From: Gracilimonas mengyeensis
GTDB lineage: Bacteria; Bacteroidota; Rhodothermia; Balneolales; Balneolaceae
Assembly (NCBI RefSeq): GCF_900182705.1
Contig: NZ_FXTP01000010.1
Coordinates: 1 to 64,000, forward strand
Length of the DNA: 64,000 bases
Direction of reading: 5' to 3'
Shown here: one piece after another, positions 13,813 through 21,156 of the stretch
Layout of the letters: each line of letters opens with the position of its first letter
Position numbering within the stretch: the stretch's first letter is position 1
Program-made: the position numbers and the translations under genes
Notes under the pieces: generated by a model
Seen by the model: the letters and a program-made list of their open reading frames with translations, nothing else
What the model was told of the DNA's origin: nothing
Database searches by the model: none

Positions 13813-13843
13813 CCAAAAAAAAGGCGGACAAATCTGTCCGCCC
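13813..13843 (-). terminator. Intrinsic terminator of the ilvDBNC transcript
   Basis: GGCGGACA and TGTCCGCC (13823-13842) make a perfect 8-pair GC-rich stem with an AATC loop. The A run at 13813-13822 is a U tract on the minus strand. It follows the ilvC stop by about 8 bp. Confidence 0.92.
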
Positions 13844-13850
13844 TACATGG

Positions 13851-14921
13851 TTATTCAGCTGCTTCTTCTTCGACGGGGGTATTTTCCGGGCGTAGTTGTC
13901 GCACGGTAGACCCGGCTTTCCACATTTCGGATTCGCGGAGTTCAGCCAGTTCTTCTTCCAGCTTCTCGCGATAATCTTCCTTCGAGTTGGAGTCGATAGA
14001 ACGCTGGGCCTCGCGACCTGCAGCCACTTCTTCATAAAGGTTTTCAAACACGGGCTTGGTGGCATCACGGAACTTCTTCCACCAGTCAAGAGCACCGCGC
14101 TGGGCGGTAGTGGAGCAGTTTGCGTACATCCAGTCCATGCCGTTTTCAGCTACCAGCGGCATCAGCGATTGCGTGAGTTCTTCCACCGTTTCGTTGAAAG
14201 CTTCAGAAGGAGAGTGGCCATTGGCACGGAGTACATCATACTGCGCCGCAAAAATACCTTGAATGGCGCCCATCAGGGTTCCGCGTTCACCCGTTAAATC
14301 ACTGTACACTTCGTCTTTAAATGTAGTTTCAAACAGGTAACCTGAGCCTACGCCAATACCAAGTGCGGTAACGCGTTCTTTGGCTCGGCCGGTAGCATCC
14401 TGGAAAATAGCGTAACTGGAGTTCAGTCCGCGTCCTTCCAGAAACATTCTGCGCAAAGATGTACCGGAACCTTTAGGAGCAACCAGGATTACATCCACAT
14501 CGTCAGGAGGGATGATACCCGTGCGGTCTTTATAGGTAATGCCAAAACCGTGAGAGAAATAAAGGGCATCGCCGGGATTGAGTGCACCTTTTACGGTATC
14601 CCAAACAGCAATTTGGCCTGCGTCGGAGAGCAGGTACTGCACGATGGTTCCTTTCTGAGCGGCTTCCTCAATTTCAAAAAGATTTTCGCCGGGTACCCAG
14701 CCGTCTTCCACGGCTTTGTCCCATGTGCTGGAGTTTTTGCGCTGCCCTACAATTACATTAAAGCCATTGTCTTTCAGGTTCAGTGCTTGTCCCGGTCCCT
14801 GAACTCCATAGCCCAATACCGCAATGGTTTCATCTTTTAGGGTTTCTCGTGCTTTGTCGAGCGGAAATTCTTCCCGCGTTACTACTTCTTCTTCGACTCC
14901 GCCAAAATTTAGTGTTGCCAT
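13851..14921 (-). CDS. ilvC: Ketol-acid reductoisomerase
   Basis: It isomerises and reduces acetolactate or acetohydroxybutyrate to the dihydroxy acids of valine and isoleucine synthesis, using NADPH and Mg2+. The Rossmann loop is GYGVQGPGQ (37-45), with VGQRKNSSTW as the cofactor-specificity loop. Metal-site acidic residues lie in VYSDLTGERGTLMGAI and later NETVEELTQ. The first block NFGGVEEEVVTREEFPL and the VQGPGQ variant place it with the fungal/Bacteroidota-like class rather than the E. coli type. The 356 residues fit that class. It is the last gene of ilvDBNC and is followed by a strong terminator. Confidence 0.95.
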   Translation of the reverse strand: MATLNFGGVEEEVVTREEFPLDKARETLKDETIAVLGYGVQGPGQALNLKDNGFNVIVGQRKNSSTWDKAVEDGWVPGENLFEIEEAAQKGTIVQYLLSDAGQIAVWDTVKGALNPGDALYFSHGFGITYKDRTGIIPPDDVDVILVAPKGSGTSLRRMFLEGRGLNSSYAIFQDATGRAKERVTALGIGVGSGYLFETTFKDEVYSDLTGERGTLMGAIQGIFAAQYDVLRANGHSPSEAFNETVEELTQSLMPLVAENGMDWMYANCSTTAQRGALDWWKKFRDATKPVFENLYEEVAAGREAQRSIDSNSKEDYREKLEEELAELRESEMWKAGSTVRQLRPENTPVEEEAAE

Positions 14922-15142: not shown

Positions 15143-15688
15143 TCAGGCTTCAGCTTCGGCTAAGAGCTTTTCAACATCCTTACCGATACCGTCTCGCTGC
15201 CGTGATACGGCAATGCGTCCGGAGCGTACAAATTCGTTGATGCCATACGGTTTCAATTCATCGAAAAGAGCCTTGGTTTCTCTGCGGAAACCTGATTTCT
15301 CGATCACTACAAAATGCTCTTCAATGGTTAGGAAACGGGCGTTGTGCTCTCGTACAATCCGCTCTATTTCCAGGCCATTGGTTAATGATTTGGTAGAAAT
15401 CTTATACAAAGCCAATTCCTGCTGAACCACTTCCTTCTTGGTATAGTAGTCCGCTTTCAGTACCTCCACCTGCTTCTCGATTTGTTTCACCACTTTGATA
15501 ACCTGATCAAGCGTTTCCGTTACCGCGATGGTAAACCGGTGGATGCCTTCGGTCTCGCTTTCAGAGGTAGTGAGGCTTTCGATGTTTATTTTCCGCTTAG
15601 TGAAAATGATGGTGATCCTGTGTAAAAGACCCACATGATTTTCAGTATAGGCGGTTATCGTAAATTCTTGTTTGTCTGATGTATTCAT
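15143..15688 (-). CDS. ilvN: Acetolactate synthase small (regulatory) subunit
   Basis: This regulatory partner of IlvB binds valine and other branched-chain amino acids. The N-terminal ACT domain begins FTITAYTENHVGLLHRITII, followed by the long C-terminal domain of large-type small subunits. I start at the ATG at 15688-15686: GGAGTGATCTT stands immediately upstream as a Shine-Dalgarno, and the ACT domain begins eight residues later. An upstream in-frame start would add 20 residues that overlap ilvB. The chosen start is 4 bp after the ilvB stop, so translation is probably coupled. Product 181 residues. It is the third gene of ilvDBNC. Confidence 0.94.
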   Translation of the reverse strand: MNTSDKQEFTITAYTENHVGLLHRITIIFTKRKINIESLTTSESETEGIHRFTIAVTETLDQVIKVVKQIEKQVEVLKADYYTKKEVVQQELALYKISTKSLTNGLEIERIVREHNARFLTIEEHFVVIEKSGFRRETKALFDELKPYGINEFVRSGRIAVSRQRDGIGKDVEKLLAEAEA

Positions 15689-15692
15689 AAGA

Positions 15693-17432
15693 TCACTCCA
15701 ATCTAATTTCTGCGACTCCCGATCCACTCGGAACCATTGGGAATACATTGTTTTCTTTACCCACCATTACTTCAAGGAAATAAGACCCGTCATAGTTGAT
15801 GAACTCTTCAATGGCTCCTTTGAGGTTTTCACGCTCGGTTACTTTAGCCGTGGGGATATAAAATCCTTTGGCTAACTGCTGGAAGTCCGGGTTGATGAGT
15901 TCGGTGGATGAATATCGTTTTTCGAAAAAGAGTTGTTGCCACTGGCGTACCATGCCTAAAAATTCATTATTCAGCAGCAGTACTTTTACTTTGGCTTTGG
16001 TTTGATAAATGGTGGCCAGTTCCTGAATGGTCATTTGTAATCCGCCATCGCCAACAACCGCAACTACGGTTCGGTCAGGGGCGCCAAGGGCTGCTCCAAT
16101 TCCGGCCGGCAGGCCAAAGCCCATGGTGCCGAGTCCGCCGGAAGTAATATTACTTTTAGATTGGGTGAATTTGGTATATCGGCAAGCTACCATCTGGTGT
16201 TGACCTACATCGGTAACCAGGATATGATCACCACCGGTAACATCATTGATATGGCGGATAACTTCACCCATACTCAATACATCCGATTTGGGATGAAGCT
16301 CTTCATCAATCACTTTGTCCCATTCTTCCTGATCGCAATCCCGGAAACGTTGCAGCCATTCTTCGTGGCTGTTGGGCTTTACGAGCTTGTTTAGTTCGGT
16401 GAGGGATTCCTTGGCATCGCCCAACACAGGTACATCAGCCGGAACGTTTTTGTCAATTTCTGCGGGATCAATTTCCAGATGAATCACCTTGGCCTGCTTG
16501 GCGTATTTATCCAGATTTCCGGTCACCCGGTCATCAAACCGCATGCCCACGGCAATCAATACATCGCATTCGTTAGTAAGCAGGTTGGGTCCATAATTAC
16601 CGTGCATCCCCAACATCCCCACATTTAAGGGGTGATCGGTTTCCAGGGCCGAAAGCCCCATGATGGTCCATGCAGAGGGAATACCTGTTTTTTCAATAAA
16701 CTGCTTGAATTCCTTTTCGGCATTTGCAAGAATCACTCCTTGCCCAAAAAGCACATAGGGACGCTCCGCATTGTTAATCAACTCGGCGGCTTCAGCCACT
16801 TTAGACATATCCAGCTTGGGTTTGGGTTTATAGCTTCTGAGCGAGGTACAAGGCTCGTATGCAAAGTCGAACTCCTCAAACTGGGCATCTTTGGTGATAT
16901 CAATCACTACGGGGCCAGGTCGGCCGGACCGTGCTAGGTAAAATGCTTTTGCCAATGCCTGTGGGATTTCTTCCGCTTTCGTGATTTGAAAATTCCACTT
17001 TGTTACGGGCATGGAAATACCCAGCACATCGCATTCCTGGAAGGCATCGCTTCCCAATAGAGAAGAAGGCACCTGCCCCGTAATGCACACAAGGGGAGTG
17101 GAATCGATTTGGGCGTCGGCGATTCCTGTAATCAGGTTAGTGGCACCCGGACCCGATGTGGCGAGGCAGACTCCGACTTTACCATTGGCGCGGGCATAAC
17201 CCTGTGCCATGTGAATAGCACCCTGTTCGTGCCGTGAAAGCACGTGATGAATGCTGTCCTGATGGTCATAAAGGGCATCATACACCGGCATAATAGCGCC
17301 GCCGGGATACCCAAAAGCCATATCGACATTCTCTTGTAGCAGGATCTGGACAATAGCTTCGGCCCCGGTCATGCGTTTAGTCGTCTTTGGTTTTTGTTTT
17401 GTTGATTGTTCGATGGTCTCTACAGTTCCCAT
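15693..17432 (-). CDS. ilvB: Acetolactate synthase large (catalytic) subunit
   Basis: This TPP-, FAD- and Mg2+-dependent enzyme condenses pyruvate with pyruvate or 2-oxobutyrate at the branch point of valine/leucine and isoleucine synthesis. The N-terminal FGYPGGAIMPVYDAL is followed by the catalytic Glu69 in SRHEQGAIHMA. The Mg-TPP motif near the C-terminus is VGDGGLQMTIQEL..LLLNN, and MRFDDRVTGN in the middle domain is typical of the family. The 579 residues are full length. It starts 18 bp after ilvD, with a conserved-looking ACTCAT element directly before the ATG, and leads into ilvN. Confidence 0.96.
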   Translation of the reverse strand: MGTVETIEQSTKQKPKTTKRMTGAEAIVQILLQENVDMAFGYPGGAIMPVYDALYDHQDSIHHVLSRHEQGAIHMAQGYARANGKVGVCLATSGPGATNLITGIADAQIDSTPLVCITGQVPSSLLGSDAFQECDVLGISMPVTKWNFQITKAEEIPQALAKAFYLARSGRPGPVVIDITKDAQFEEFDFAYEPCTSLRSYKPKPKLDMSKVAEAAELINNAERPYVLFGQGVILANAEKEFKQFIEKTGIPSAWTIMGLSALETDHPLNVGMLGMHGNYGPNLLTNECDVLIAVGMRFDDRVTGNLDKYAKQAKVIHLEIDPAEIDKNVPADVPVLGDAKESLTELNKLVKPNSHEEWLQRFRDCDQEEWDKVIDEELHPKSDVLSMGEVIRHINDVTGGDHILVTDVGQHQMVACRYTKFTQSKSNITSGGLGTMGFGLPAGIGAALGAPDRTVVAVVGDGGLQMTIQELATIYQTKAKVKVLLLNNEFLGMVRQWQQLFFEKRYSSTELINPDFQQLAKGFYIPTAKVTERENLKGAIEEFINYDGSYFLEVMVGKENNVFPMVPSGSGVAEIRLE

Positions 17433-17450: not shown

Positions 17451-19130
17451 TTAAAACTCGTCTGTTACACAGCCATTGGAGGCCGATGAAACGGTTCGGG
17501 CGTATTTATAAAGGGTACCGCGGTTTTCCTTCAAGGGAGGGGCGGTCCAGTTCTCTTTGCGTTCGGCAAGTTCTTCGTCTGAAATCAACACGTTGATTTC
17601 TCGTTCTATAGCATCAATGCGGATGGTGTCTCCGTTTTGTATCAAGCCAATGGCACCGCCCACCTGGGCTTCCGGGGTGATATGCCCCACTACAAAACCG
17701 TGAGTACCTCCTGAAAAGCGTCCGTCGGTGATCAGGGCAACGTCGTTGCCTAAACCGGCGCCCATGATGGCAGAAGTAGGTTTCAGCATCTCCGGCATTC
17801 CGGGGCCGCCCTTGGGCCCGCAGTATCGAATAACAACGACATCGCCGGCTTCCACTTCACCGTTTCTAATGCCTTCATTGGCATCTACTTCATTTTCAAA
17901 TACACGGGCGGTTCCTTCAAAAACTTCGCCTTCTTTACCAGTGATTTTTGCTACCGAGCCTTCCGGCGCAATATTGCCATATAAAATCTGTAAGTGCCCG
18001 GTTTTCTTGATGGGCTTATCCAGCGGATAAACAATGTCCTGTGTTTCATCCAGGGGAGCTACTTCAGCCAAATTCTCGGCCAGTGTTTTTCCGGTGATGG
18101 TGAGACAGTCTCCATGCAGCATGTCATTGTTCAACATAAACTTGAGTACCGCTGGTACACCGCCTGCTTTGTGCAGGTCTTCCATTACGTACTGCCCGCT
18201 GGGTTTCAGGTCGGCAAGGAAAGGAGTGGAGTCACTGAGTCGCTGGAAGTCATCCAGTCCGATATCAATATCCGCCGTTTTTGCGATGGCAATCAGGTGC
18301 AATACTGCGTTGGTAGATCCGCCCAAAACCATCACCAATCGGATGGCATTTTCAAAAGATTTTTTCGTGAGGATATCGGAAGGCTTAATATCATTTTCTA
18401 ACAAATAGCGCAGATGTTTTCCTACTTCTTCGCATTCCAACACTTTGGAGCTGTCGTTGGCGGGATTAGATGAATTATAGGGCAGAGCTAATCCCAGGGC
18501 TTCAATAGAAGATGACATGGTATTGGCAGTGTACATTCCGCCGCAAGCACCGGGTCCGGGACACGCATGATGAATCACATCCTTAAACTCCTCTTCTAAC
18601 ATCTTCCCGCTAACTTTTTCGCCCCAGGCTTCAAAAGCGGATACCACGTCTAGTTTTTTTCCATTGTGATGTCCCGGTGCAATCGTACCGCCATATACCA
18701 ATATAGAAGGACGATTTACGCGAATCATAGCCATCAGGGCGCCCGGCATGTTTTTATCGCAACCTACGATTGCCGCAAAGCCGTCGTAAGCCATGCCTTT
18801 AACCACGCTTTCCATCGAATCGGCAATGATATCGCGAGAGGGGAGCGAATAGCGCATACCCGGCGTACCCATCGAAATACCATCGCTAATACCGATGGTG
18901 TTAAAGATGAGCCCGTTCATATCGGAATTCTCAATTCCTTTTTTCACGTGAACGGCCAGATCGTTGAGGTGCATATTACAGGGGTTGCCCTCGTATCCCG
19001 TGCTTGCTACTCCGATGAGAGGTTTCTGCAGGTCGTCGTCGTCCAGCCCGATGGCATGTAGCATCGCCTGGGCTGCAGGCTGGGAGTCGTCTTGAGTTAC
19101 CTGTTTACTGAATTTATTTAATTCCGCCAT
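17451..19130 (-). CDS. ilvD: Dihydroxy-acid dehydratase
   Basis: This Fe-S enzyme dehydrates 2,3-dihydroxy acids to the 2-oxo acids of valine and isoleucine. Cluster Cys residues are in [20 protein letters not shown] and [22 protein letters not shown]-type substrate loops appear as [12 protein letters not shown], and [16 protein letters not shown] is near the C-terminus. I start at the ATG at 19130-19128 (559 residues, [10 protein letters not shown]) because ten extra residues from the upstream ATG at 19160 look non-coding and would run into the leader. It is the first structural gene after the attenuator. Confidence 0.95.
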
Positions 19131-19172
19131 GTAAATGAGTGAGTCTGAGATTCTTGTCAAAAAGCTTAATCC

Positions 19173-19207
19173 AAAAAAAAAGCCTTCCGGTTTAGGGAAG
19201 GCTTTTT
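19173..19207 (-). terminator. Attenuator terminator upstream of ilvD
   Basis: Read on the minus strand, AAAAAGCCTTCC, loop CTAAACC and GGAAGGCTTTTTTTTT form a 12-pair stem (GC-rich core AGCCTTCC) ending in an uninterrupted U run. It sits 26 bp after the leader-ORF stop and about 43 bp before the ilvD ATG, so it would stop transcription just before the operon. Confidence 0.88.
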
Positions 19208-19248
19208 GTCAGTAATCATAATCGTGATGTCGTCACAAAGCTTTCCCT
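19194..19248 (-). promoter_or_regulatory. Antiterminator pairing region of the ilv attenuator
   Basis: The last codons of the leader ORF (19248-19235, AGGGAAAGCTTTGT on minus) can pair with the 5' arm of the terminator (19209-19194, ACAAAAAGCCTTCCCT on minus). This gives about 13 pairs, with one mismatch and a two-base bulge. That pairing and the terminator stem use the same arm, so they exclude each other. A ribosome stalled at the Ile/Val/Leu codons leaves the first segment free and antitermination follows. A ribosome at the stop codon covers it and the terminator forms. Confidence 0.75.
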
Positions 19249-19307
19249 GATTGGTATGAACTACCAATGACTTGAATAATGACCAGAGAAATAATGACAG
19301 ACAGCAT
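19233..19307 (-). CDS. ilv leader peptide, 24 residues
   Basis: ATG at 19307-19305 opens a 24-codon frame ending in TGA at 19235-19233. Residues 1-14 read MLSVIISLVIIQVI, so Leu, Val or Ile fill 10 of codons 2-14; the rest includes GSSYQSGKAL. There is no Shine-Dalgarno, as for most genes here. Its role would be to measure charged branched-chain tRNA by ribosome stalling, as the IlvL, IlvB-leader and LeuL peptides do in enterobacteria. It lies between the upstream minus-strand gene (ending 19406) and ilvD, and would be the first cistron of ilvDBNC. Confidence 0.82.
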   Translation of the reverse strand: MLSVIISLVIIQVIGSSYQSGKAL

Positions 19308-19329
19308 AATTAAACGTTTATTTCGACCA

Positions 19330-19360
19330 CAAAGAAAAGCTGATTTACATTCAGTATCAA
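19330..19360 (-). promoter_or_regulatory. Candidate promoter of the ilv leader
   Basis: On the minus strand TTG (19360-19358) is followed after 20 bases by TTTCTTTG (19337-19330). This approximates the Bacteroidota pattern TTG-N19/20-TAnnTTTG with one change (T for A). It is 23 bases upstream of the leader ATG. It is only a pattern match, and the promoter rules for this lineage are assumed. Confidence 0.35.
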
Positions 19361-19405
19361 CTTTATTGTTTGTATAAGATTTTGATTAATGGGATGCCCA
19401 AACCG

Positions 19406-20956
19406 TTAGTTGCTGGCATTTCGTGGAGTGAATTTGCCTTTAATGACTTCCTGAACGGGTTTTTGATGGATTTTTGCCTCCAGCCAGGATATGATGTCCA
19501 AATATAAAAATGGCCTTTTTTGATAGGGCATTTCGTTTATTTCAAGCAATCGGTCACGCAGTTTGATAAACCGATCCTTGAGTGTTGAACCATTTGTTTT
19601 CCCCAAGTCTTGCAGAAATTTAAGGATTTCCTGCTGTACCAGGTTCAGATCATTCATCTTGCGAAGGAAGCGATATACCGAGCGAATTTGATACTCAACA
19701 AGGTTTTGATTTCCAAGTTCATAATGGGCAATCAGGTTTAGGATGCGTGCAAAACAATGCAGGTCCTCCCGCAGTTTCTGGTCGTGGTAGTTGATGATTT
19801 TATTGAGATACTCGATGGCTTTTTCATTCTTCCCAGCGCCAAAGTATAGGCAAGCTATTTTGTAATAAAACACCAGGATACGGTGTGGATCAATCTGCTG
19901 GGAATATTTCTCGATCTTTTGATTCAGTTCAGGTACCATTTCCGTACCCTCAGTAAAAGTACCAGCCATAAAGTGACTGTTAATTTTGGAGGTATAGAGA
20001 TACATAAAGCCCAGGGTTTCCAGGTTTTCATTAGACCGTGTCGGGGGATCTTTGAGAAATGCTTCCAGCTTATTTTTCACTTTTTCATGCTTTTCGTAGT
20101 GCCCCAAGATGAATAGTGCTTCCAGTAAAACATGCTGCCCTTTTAAGTACCAGATGGGTTCCAGTTCCAGCATATCGGGGTTGTTGTTAAATAAGTCTAC
20201 CCATTTCTGGGAATACCGGTATTGGAGCAGGAAGTCCTGTACAATGAGGCTGTACCAGGCATAAGAGACATTCAGGTAAAGCTGTTCGAAAAAACCAAGT
20301 CCTTCCCGGCTAATGTCCTTCAGTTCTTTTTTAAAATACCGGCTGATGTTCTCGTAGTCACGTTCATCCCGCACATGACCTGCTTTTATGTATATGCCGT
20401 ATAGGCGAAGCGAGAGATTGGCCAAGCGGTTGTAATTATTGAGTGTATCAATTTTTTGTTCGGCTTGTTCAATCAGCTCATCAGCACGGTTTTTTAGGCT
20501 GCGGGTGATGTACTGAGATTCAATAATGCGTTCAAAAGTAAGAATCTCGTACTCCAGCGAATGCCGGTGATTTTGAGTTGCCAGGGATTTGGCTTTGTCT
20601 AACAGGCGCAGGCTTTGGATGTATAAGCCTTTATTATACAGGATACGGGCGTGGTCAATCTGTTCCCGCAAATAAATATCCACATTATGGTTGATGTTGG
20701 TAAGCCTGAGACTGGTAAGTATTTGTTTGTATAAGTGTGCTTTGAGGTTTGAAAACTGACGTTTTTTGACTCCTTTGAGGCTTTTGATGATATGGTCCTC
20801 ATCGTATTCATCCACCTTGTCGATAGCATCAAACAGTTTAATAAATTTGGCATCGGGACTGCTGTTGCGGGTGGCATAAATCTTGAAAGCACGCTTTTCT
20901 GCCTTTGTCAACGATTTAATCAGTTGATAAAGATAGTCATTTGGTTGGTTGGCCAT
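19406..20956 (-). CDS. Uncharacterised alpha-helical repeat protein
   Basis: This 516-residue soluble protein has no signal peptide and no membrane segment. The start reads LYQLIKSLTKAEKRAFKIYA, followed by a small helical domain (about 1-90). A long array of paired helices with TPR-like spacing follows (for example KGLYIQSLRLLDKAKSLA and AGKNEKAIEYLNKIINYHD). I recall similar proteins opening with a L..L.KSL.K.EKR.FK motif from many Bacteroidota genomes without assigned function. No catalytic motif is visible. It stands between the ilv and leu genes, transcribed in the ilv direction, and is divergent from leuA over 200 bp. A link to amino-acid metabolism is only positional. Confidence 0.75.
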   Translation of the reverse strand: MANQPNDYLYQLIKSLTKAEKRAFKIYATRNSSPDAKFIKLFDAIDKVDEYDEDHIIKSLKGVKKRQFSNLKAHLYKQILTSLRLTNINHNVDIYLREQIDHARILYNKGLYIQSLRLLDKAKSLATQNHRHSLEYEILTFERIIESQYITRSLKNRADELIEQAEQKIDTLNNYNRLANLSLRLYGIYIKAGHVRDERDYENISRYFKKELKDISREGLGFFEQLYLNVSYAWYSLIVQDFLLQYRYSQKWVDLFNNNPDMLELEPIWYLKGQHVLLEALFILGHYEKHEKVKNKLEAFLKDPPTRSNENLETLGFMYLYTSKINSHFMAGTFTEGTEMVPELNQKIEKYSQQIDPHRILVFYYKIACLYFGAGKNEKAIEYLNKIINYHDQKLREDLHCFARILNLIAHYELGNQNLVEYQIRSVYRFLRKMNDLNLVQQEILKFLQDLGKTNGSTLKDRFIKLRDRLLEINEMPYQKRPFLYLDIISWLEAKIHQKPVQEVIKGKFTPRNASN

Positions 20957-21156
20957 TGTATAAAATAAGTGAGTGTGAGTGTGCTAACTTACTGAAAATT
21001 AACTATCTATTGAAATAGCCGGAATTCTTGGGTGTCGTAAATACTATCAAATGTGGTTTTATGCTTTATATATATGCGCCTACATTCGGCCCAGTTACTT
21101 GAACTTTGACCAGAGAAAGTAATTGACACGGCTTTAAGTTAGAAAACCTCAGACTA

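Follow-up and report, generated by a model that had tools for sequence, protein, structure and literature searches.

The ilvDBNC operon of Gracilimonas mengyeensis is preceded by an element that, judged from its sequence and its conservation in relatives, is very probably a classical ribosome-mediated transcription attenuator. A short open reading frame (ORF) rich in branched-chain amino acid (BCAA) codons is followed by an intrinsic terminator, and the end of the ORF can pair either with an upstream segment of the leader or with the 5′ arm of that terminator. A preliminary description of this DNA had assigned the element an attenuator architecture of the enterobacterial type, and the ORF, the terminator, the alternative pairings, and the conservation of all three support that assignment.

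Leader, terminator, and operon

All features lie in the window (the whole 64,000-nt stretch of DNA that was analyzed), and those belonging to the ilv locus are on its minus strand (Table 1). The preliminary description had placed a 24-codon ORF with 10 BCAA codons at 19307 to 19233, which proved correct when re-read from the sequence: Leu, Ile, or Val is encoded by 10 of the 13 codons at leader positions 2 to 14. Its remaining landmarks were likewise recovered directly, namely, a gap of 25 nt after the leader stop codon (which ends at 19233), a 12-pair hairpin, the U run, and the ilvD ATG at 19130. The hairpin (19207 to 19177, with a loop of 7 nt) runs into an unbroken T tract that extends to 19173 and thus has the form of an intrinsic terminator; none of 200 dinucleotide shuffles folds as well as the leader as a whole (z = −4.7). 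We considered, and rejected, a terminator cassette shared with other operons: an exact pattern search of the organism's own genome returned one other hairpin (C2:90064) besides the ilvD site, which was matched on both strands because its arms are nearly symmetric.

Table 1. Coordinates of the leader, its alternative strands, the promoter-like boxes, and the operon (positions in the window)
Feature	Coordinates	Strand	Basis
TTG of a Bacteroidota-type −33 element, candidate	19358..19360	−	Alignment of 20 family loci
TTTCTTTG, −7-like box, candidate; predicted transcript start about 6 to 8 nt beyond	19330..19337	−	Alignment, box search
Leader ORF, 24 codons, Ile/Val/Leu-rich, MLSVIISLVIIQVIGSSYQSGKAL	19233..19307	−	Sequence read, ORF list; present in 27/27 loci of this ilvD type
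Protector (1:2) helix, strand 1, partner 19251 to 19242	19282..19291	−	Counted on family alignment
Small hairpin GGTA...TACC within the leader ORF	19253..19265	−	95% of alignment cells paired
Strand 2, end of leader ORF and stop codon; partners are strand 1 (via 19251 to 19242) or strand 3 (via 19248 to 19234)	19234..19251	−	Duplex prediction, alignment
Strand 3, terminator 5′ arm, alternative partner of strand 2	19196..19207	−	Hairpin and duplex prediction
Strand 4 and U run, terminator 3′ arm and T tract	19173..19188	−	Folding, terminator search, alignment
ilvD, dihydroxy-acid dehydratase, first gene after the leader	17451..19130	−	TIGR00110 equivalog above cut-off
ilvB, acetolactate synthase large subunit	15693..17432	−	TIGR00118 above cut-off
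ilvN, acetolactate synthase small subunit, start codon tentative	15143..15748	−	TIGR00119 above cut-off
ilvC, ketol-acid reductoisomerase	13851..14921	−	TIGR00465 above cut-off
Terminator-like hairpin directly 3′ of ilvC, presumed end of the regulated unit	13821..13844	−	Hairpin search

The identities of ilvD, ilvB, ilvN, and ilvC are confirmed by NCBIfam equivalogs. Because a terminator-like hairpin follows ilvC immediately and ilvA begins only some 590 nt past it, ilvDBNC most likely makes up the regulated unit, with ilvA probably forming a separate one. At the opposite end of the locus, leuA (21157) opens an oppositely oriented leu operon, such that a BCAA operon adjoins the ilv locus.

The gene upstream of the leader supplies a simpler reading of the hairpin. 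A BT2802-like gene (19406 to 20956) shares the leader's orientation, with 98 nt separating its end from the leader ORF; the hairpin, being a good intrinsic terminator, might merely terminate that gene, the ORF having arisen by chance. We consider this highly improbable: a BCAA-rich ORF and a terminator occur together in 56 of 176 ilvD upstream regions, versus 0 of 1760 dinucleotide shuffles; the antiterminator covaries across clades; and promoter-like boxes at a fixed spacing lie between the BT2802-like gene and the leader. The TTG among these boxes was assigned on the Bacteroidota −33 consensus. Boxes resembling TTG-N20-TTTCTTTG and ending 15 to 35 nt before the ORF are present at 26 of the 27 family loci that share this type of ilvD (L084 is without them), as opposed to 19 of 2700 shuffles, and the −7 consensus of Flavobacterium is TAnnTTTG (PMC9723704). 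The boxes predict a transcript start upstream of the leader and speak against one downstream of 19233. At the loci of genus g19, where the ORF starts with TTG, the distance to the box is the same 22 nt, which supports TTG as the start codon in that genus.

Alternative pairings and the predicted switch

Pairing of the leader end with the 5′ arm of the terminator, put at about 13 pairs in the preliminary description, is recovered as a duplex involving positions 19248 to 19234, with 13 pairs and −15.1 kcal/mol, a value equaled once when the ORF-end stretch was shuffled base by base 200 times. This 2:3 antiterminator is matched by no more than 10 of 200 shuffles at 38 of 56 loci (including 25 of the 27 family loci), and 18 of the 56 miss that mark. 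Strands 2 and 3 were also swapped among 10 representatives having no common 7-mer in the terminator arm: native combinations average −9.9 kcal/mol, versus −6.0 kcal/mol for swapped ones, and the summed native energy is reached in 0 of 20000 permutations. A terminator arm's own strand 2 is its best binder in six of the 10 representatives and its second best in two, with that of L065 ranking fifth and that of L024 last.

The competing 1:2 helix is paired in 88.8% of the cells of the family alignment (3 of 500 shuffles reach as high), as opposed to 30 to 52% when one strand is slid along the other. Seven cells are changed on both sides (6 of 500 shuffles), and covariation stands at 0.199 versus 0.170 (5 of 500), although related alignment rows inflate scores of this kind. 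Neither the count of doubly changed pairs (3; 107 of 500 shuffles) nor that of pair types (231 of 500) exceeds what shuffles yield, and sliding the helix by +3 gives 5 pairs with both-sided changes. The terminator itself is nearly invariant within the family, with a single compensatory change, in L086 (21 of 500 shuffles). Compensatory changes in both hairpins, proposed at the outset as a check, are therefore seen in the 1:2 helix and, across clades, in the antiterminator, but amount to that one change in the terminator within the family.

The spacing of the leader bears on where a ribosome would have to stall. From the last dense BCAA codon to strand 2, the median distance is 14 nt across 56 loci (range, −22 to 21) and the distance in the window is 20 nt; at 12 of the 56 loci, the last BCAA codon lies less than 10 nt from strand 2 or within it. 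On the assumption that a ribosome covers roughly 14 nt past its A-site codon, placing it on codon 10, 11, 13, or 14 of the window's leader and folding the RNA up to 19190 gives the antiterminator, at −15.5 to −20.2 kcal/mol, and placing it on the stop codon gives a folded nascent RNA from which the antiterminator is absent. With the full RNA at equilibrium, the terminator is favored in every ribosome position tried (pair probability of about 0.995), from which it follows that control would have to be kinetic and decided before RNA polymerase has left the leader. Known attenuators likewise decide during the passage of RNA polymerase through the leader.

For stalling, coupling, kinetic choice, and the amino acid signal, we infer the following course of events. 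RNA polymerase would start about 20 nt upstream of the leader ORF, with a ribosome behind it. Under a shortage of Ile-tRNA or Val-tRNA, the ribosome would stall in the Ile/Val block, for which codons 9 to 14 offer the last chance; strand 2 would then be free to pair with the nascent 5′ arm of the terminator, no terminator would form, and ilvDBNC would be transcribed. When these tRNAs are charged, the ribosome would reach the stop codon and mask strand 2, allowing the terminator to form and ending transcription before ilvD. If the leader is not translated at all, strands 1 and 2 would pair, and the terminator would form as well.

Two other modes of control were considered. A leader might sense translation of Ile and Val codons but act through Rho or through translation initiation instead of an intrinsic terminator, and the leader of a thrA-like gene in this genus, which has cognate codons and in which no clear intrinsic terminator was seen, indicates that such a mode may exist here; for ilvD, where all 27 loci retain a terminator whose U run is uninterrupted, we regard it as very unlikely. 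T-boxes and metabolite riboswitches precede BCAA genes in other bacteria, yet one before this ilvD has a next to negligible probability, given that a scan of the entire window yields no Rfam match at gathering score and that a relaxed search of 19050 to 19450 returned 15 sub-gathering hits, none of them a T-box (the best being Phe_leader, at 33.4 of 55 bits, with Thr_leader at 22 of 55, both below the gathering threshold). The structure itself consists of three short, overlapping helices arranged around an ORF.

Leaders across the family, the genus, and the phylum

Among 92 genomes of the Balneolaceae, ilvD was found in 64, of which 27 (genera g1, g2, g5, g7, g10, g19, and g21; 72 to 100% identity) have the same ilvD type as the window. 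The conservation of the leader in close relatives, on which the preliminary description had made its reading depend, is complete in this set: a BCAA-rich ORF and then a hairpin with a U run are retained at 27 of 27 loci. Of the remaining 37, 21 genomes carrying another ilvD type were examined, and the module was present in 0 of these. That other type clusters with the Balneolota records L061, L066, and L070 (support of 99) in an IlvD tree built by a quick method with SH-aLRT values only, a grouping that agrees with placing the family in Balneolaceae. This tree, together with an IlvD identity that is higher to Flavobacteriaceae than to other Balneolaceae, had hinted at horizontal transfer; we rejected transfer of the operon and its attenuator from Flavobacteriaceae, as a tree that holds all 38 Balneolaceae IlvD sequences together is slightly likelier (p-AU of 0.586).

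Two further observations concern ilvD in these genomes. Other-type ilvD genes of Balneolaceae (L061, L108, L109, and L110, and in reverse orientation L066) are leaderless and have in common an upstream motif, AAAAGCGCTTCCAT, which is perhaps a repressor operator. Within the genus, four of 10 genomes (G021, G022, G026, and G027) gave no ilvD match; three of the four are 97 to 98% complete, and the missing gene may reflect BCAA auxotrophy.

Codon conservation was read from the 20 alignable family loci, the seven g19 loci being excluded. A block of the form V-I-I-x-(V/I)-(I/V) is kept, with Val in 20 of 20, Ile in 19 of 20, Ile in 20 of 20, and V/I and I/V each in 18 of 20, the last counts being slightly low owing to the mis-anchored L097 and to a codon inserted in L084; position x, by comparison, takes up to seven residue identities. 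Leader codon 8 is Leu at only 11 of 20 loci (12 when L097 is re-anchored by eye). Variation at codon positions 1, 2, and 3 is nearly equal (25, 25, and 23), and thus there is no general coding signal apart from the BCAA codons. The preliminary description had proposed a response to charged Ile, Val, and Leu tRNA, of which conservation favors the Ile and Val part; the Leu codons are not conserved, and the sensed signal is therefore probably the charging of Ile-tRNA and Val-tRNA rather than that of Leu-tRNA. Leu sensing at this locus was considered and rejected, also with regard to the leu operon: in the stretch before leuA (20957 to 21156), none of the listed plus-strand ORFs is Leu-rich, and no terminator-like site was found on that strand.

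Leader ORFs precede several other amino acid operons of the genus, and are rich in codons for the amino acid made by the operon. (i) A WWWP leader ORF stands ahead of the main trpE copy in all 10 genomes (at least 3 Trp in 10 codons, a density found in 17 of 1000 shuffles), and a terminator of 14 to 15 pairs was detected after the ORF in six of the 10. The organism's own trpE leader (L140:1092-1166) has a 15-pair terminator whose 5′ arm matches the end of the ORF, the antiterminator strand being AACAGTGGG/CCCACTGTT. A second trpE, in G028 (L136, G028:C13), is without a leader and possibly belongs to a contaminant or mis-binned contig. (ii) A His-rich leader ORF precedes hisG in nine of nine genomes (1 of 900 shuffles), reading HHIHHDVHHAHRGHHHIDVH in the organism's own genome (L119). 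Most hisG leaders contain a GATGTCC...GGACATC hairpin, and at their end only a small stem, which overlaps with the stop codon, precedes a T-rich stretch. (iii) A thrA-like gene, tentatively named from the homoserine dehydrogenase domain of its 822-codon ORF, has a Thr/Ile-rich leader ORF at seven of seven loci (L158 and L296 to L301; 0 of 700 shuffles). This ORF ends in ACAACCCCTTAG; next come GGGGT, a hairpin that spans the stop codon, and a conserved CATATCGCC. No intrinsic terminator was seen at any of the seven loci, and the leader is possibly a variant based on Rho or on translation. (iv) For pheA, examined in nine genomes, no terminator was found, and one F/Y-rich ORF was present (L153); before second homoserine dehydrogenase genes, five of which were examined, no leader was found.

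These leaders also bear on the possibility that the product of the ilvD leader ORF is itself functional as a small hydrophobic peptide, either a membrane microprotein or one akin to type I toxins, which are short, hydrophobic peptides and in both respects resemble the leader peptide. Such a function is scarcely plausible: at all 27 loci, the ORF precedes ilvD in the company of a terminator and an antiterminator, its sequence varies outside the Ile/Val codons, and the trpE and hisG leaders of the genus are rich in Trp and His instead. That the composition of a leader tracks the amino acid made by its own operon speaks against a peptide selected for hydrophobicity and agrees with attenuation.

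Beyond the family, modules were scored by a rule specifying an ORF of 10 to 45 codons in which at least 6 of 10 consecutive codons encode L/I/V and whose stop codon is separated by no more than 65 nt from a downstream terminator with a minimum of 6 pairs and a T-rich tail. The 56 positive ilvD upstream regions comprise the 27 from the family, 28 from the set of 80 named loci, and one (L178) from the 43 order and class genomes, the module not being found in the other 42. As the best-matching 80 of at least 595, the named loci form an uneven sample, and the 176 regions include five repeats (L180 to L184 are the genomes of L160 and L163 to L166), all of them negative. By record title, the 28 named positives are 21 Flavobacteriaceae, three Saprospiraceae, and one each of Chitinophagaceae, Weeksellaceae, unclassified Bacteroidetes, and Ignavibacteriae. 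Among the positives, L024 is probably false, and in L060 the ORF chosen by the rule is not the likely leader, another ORF being present. A further sample of the phylum has the module in 15 of 52 genomes, with L266 doubtful. Negative results refer to the region upstream of ilvD, and a leader could precede another first gene in such genomes. Separately, Bacteroidota-like ilvD genes occur in records titled Thalassovita and Planktophila (L036 and L041), which are possible contaminant or mis-binned contigs.

In some instances, modules are duplicated. At L025 and L039, two BCAA-rich ORFs, each with its own terminator, precede one ilvD; L033 has two modules, the second without a convincing antiterminator (171 of 200 shuffles are as good), and L020 shows by eye a second ORF with an imperfect hairpin. 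The tandem arrangements come from Aquimarina, Lutibacter, and Ignavibacteriae, along with Gaetbulibacter, in which the second hairpin is imperfect, and their modules lie 30 to 530 nt upstream of ilvD. A search under a looser rule returned two modules at six of 110 loci, although the second modules of L001, L050, and L099, situated 700 to 950 nt upstream of ilvD, look spurious. The 52 later phylum genomes contained no tandem modules under either the strict or the loose rule. Tandem attenuators have been described for Salmonella mgtCBR (PMC3641672).

Significance and comparison with known attenuators

Taken together, the ilv and trp leaders, and probably the his and thr leaders of one genus, tip the balance modestly toward ribosome-mediated attenuation being general for amino acid operons in Balneolota and in much of Bacteroidota and Ignavibacteriota. 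These bacteria are thought to initiate translation mostly without Shine-Dalgarno pairing, and attenuation of this kind, if it operates, would mean that in largely Shine-Dalgarno-free bacteria the first ribosome follows closely behind RNA polymerase. The ilv, trp, his, and thr leaders would accordingly make up a test set for transcription-translation coupling in the absence of such pairing. Predicted BCAA control in these bacteria would have ilvDBNC respond to the supply of Ile and Val, with no such leader seen before leuA. What these observations add is a further phylum, a wide spread within the group, and the question of coupling, rather than a new principle: a textbook switch is extended, with comparative support, to a phylum for which the open-access literature yielded no leader-peptide attenuator, most subscription journals being outside that scope. 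Predictions for Bacteroidota may already be included in a comparative analysis by Lopatovskaya and colleagues (2010).

The preliminary description had named no described case in the phylum, and none was found for Balneolota within the open-access literature, where the matches concerned gut DPP4-like enzymes and Wenzhouxiangella. In the sister phylum Bacteroidota, however, the mechanism is already considered likely: a 2021 transcriptome of Flavobacterium psychrophilum gave strong clues for leader-peptide attenuation before amino acid operons (PMC9723704). The conserved, structured 5′ elements described there precede pheA and hisG, and ilv is not named in the main text (PMC9723704). Short ORFs within long 5′ untranslated regions have been noted in Bacteroides (PMC7366714), and a paper on the his genes of the superphylum, as far as its accessible text goes, has "attenuation" in one introductory passage on regulation and does not use "leader" (PMC8305728). 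In view of the F. psychrophilum report, the novelty is smaller than the preliminary description suggested.

In enterobacterial attenuators, the first gene is preceded by a brief ORF dense in cognate codons, by 1:2, 2:3, and 3:4 helices, and by a U run. With those of ilvGMEDA, ilvBN, leu, thr, his, trp, and phe, the ilvD leader has in common the ORF of cognate codons, the three helices, and the U run; it differs from them in its candidate promoter boxes of Bacteroidota type, in the conservation of Ile and Val but not Leu codons, and in having ilvD as the first gene. Outside the enterobacteria, the leader ORF of Corynebacterium ilvBNC carries BCAA codons, and an attenuator peptide in Staphylococcus aureus sits before ilvD. 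The Corynebacterium system, as presented in the accessible parts of two papers (PMC11857589, PMC10272879), also combines an upstream ORF with a three-hairpin model before an ilv operon, but it belongs to another phylum, has another first gene, and has been studied experimentally. The S. aureus peptide likewise controls BCAA synthesis, although it is Leu-rich, comes from Firmicutes, and acts in combination with CodY (PMC5794164).
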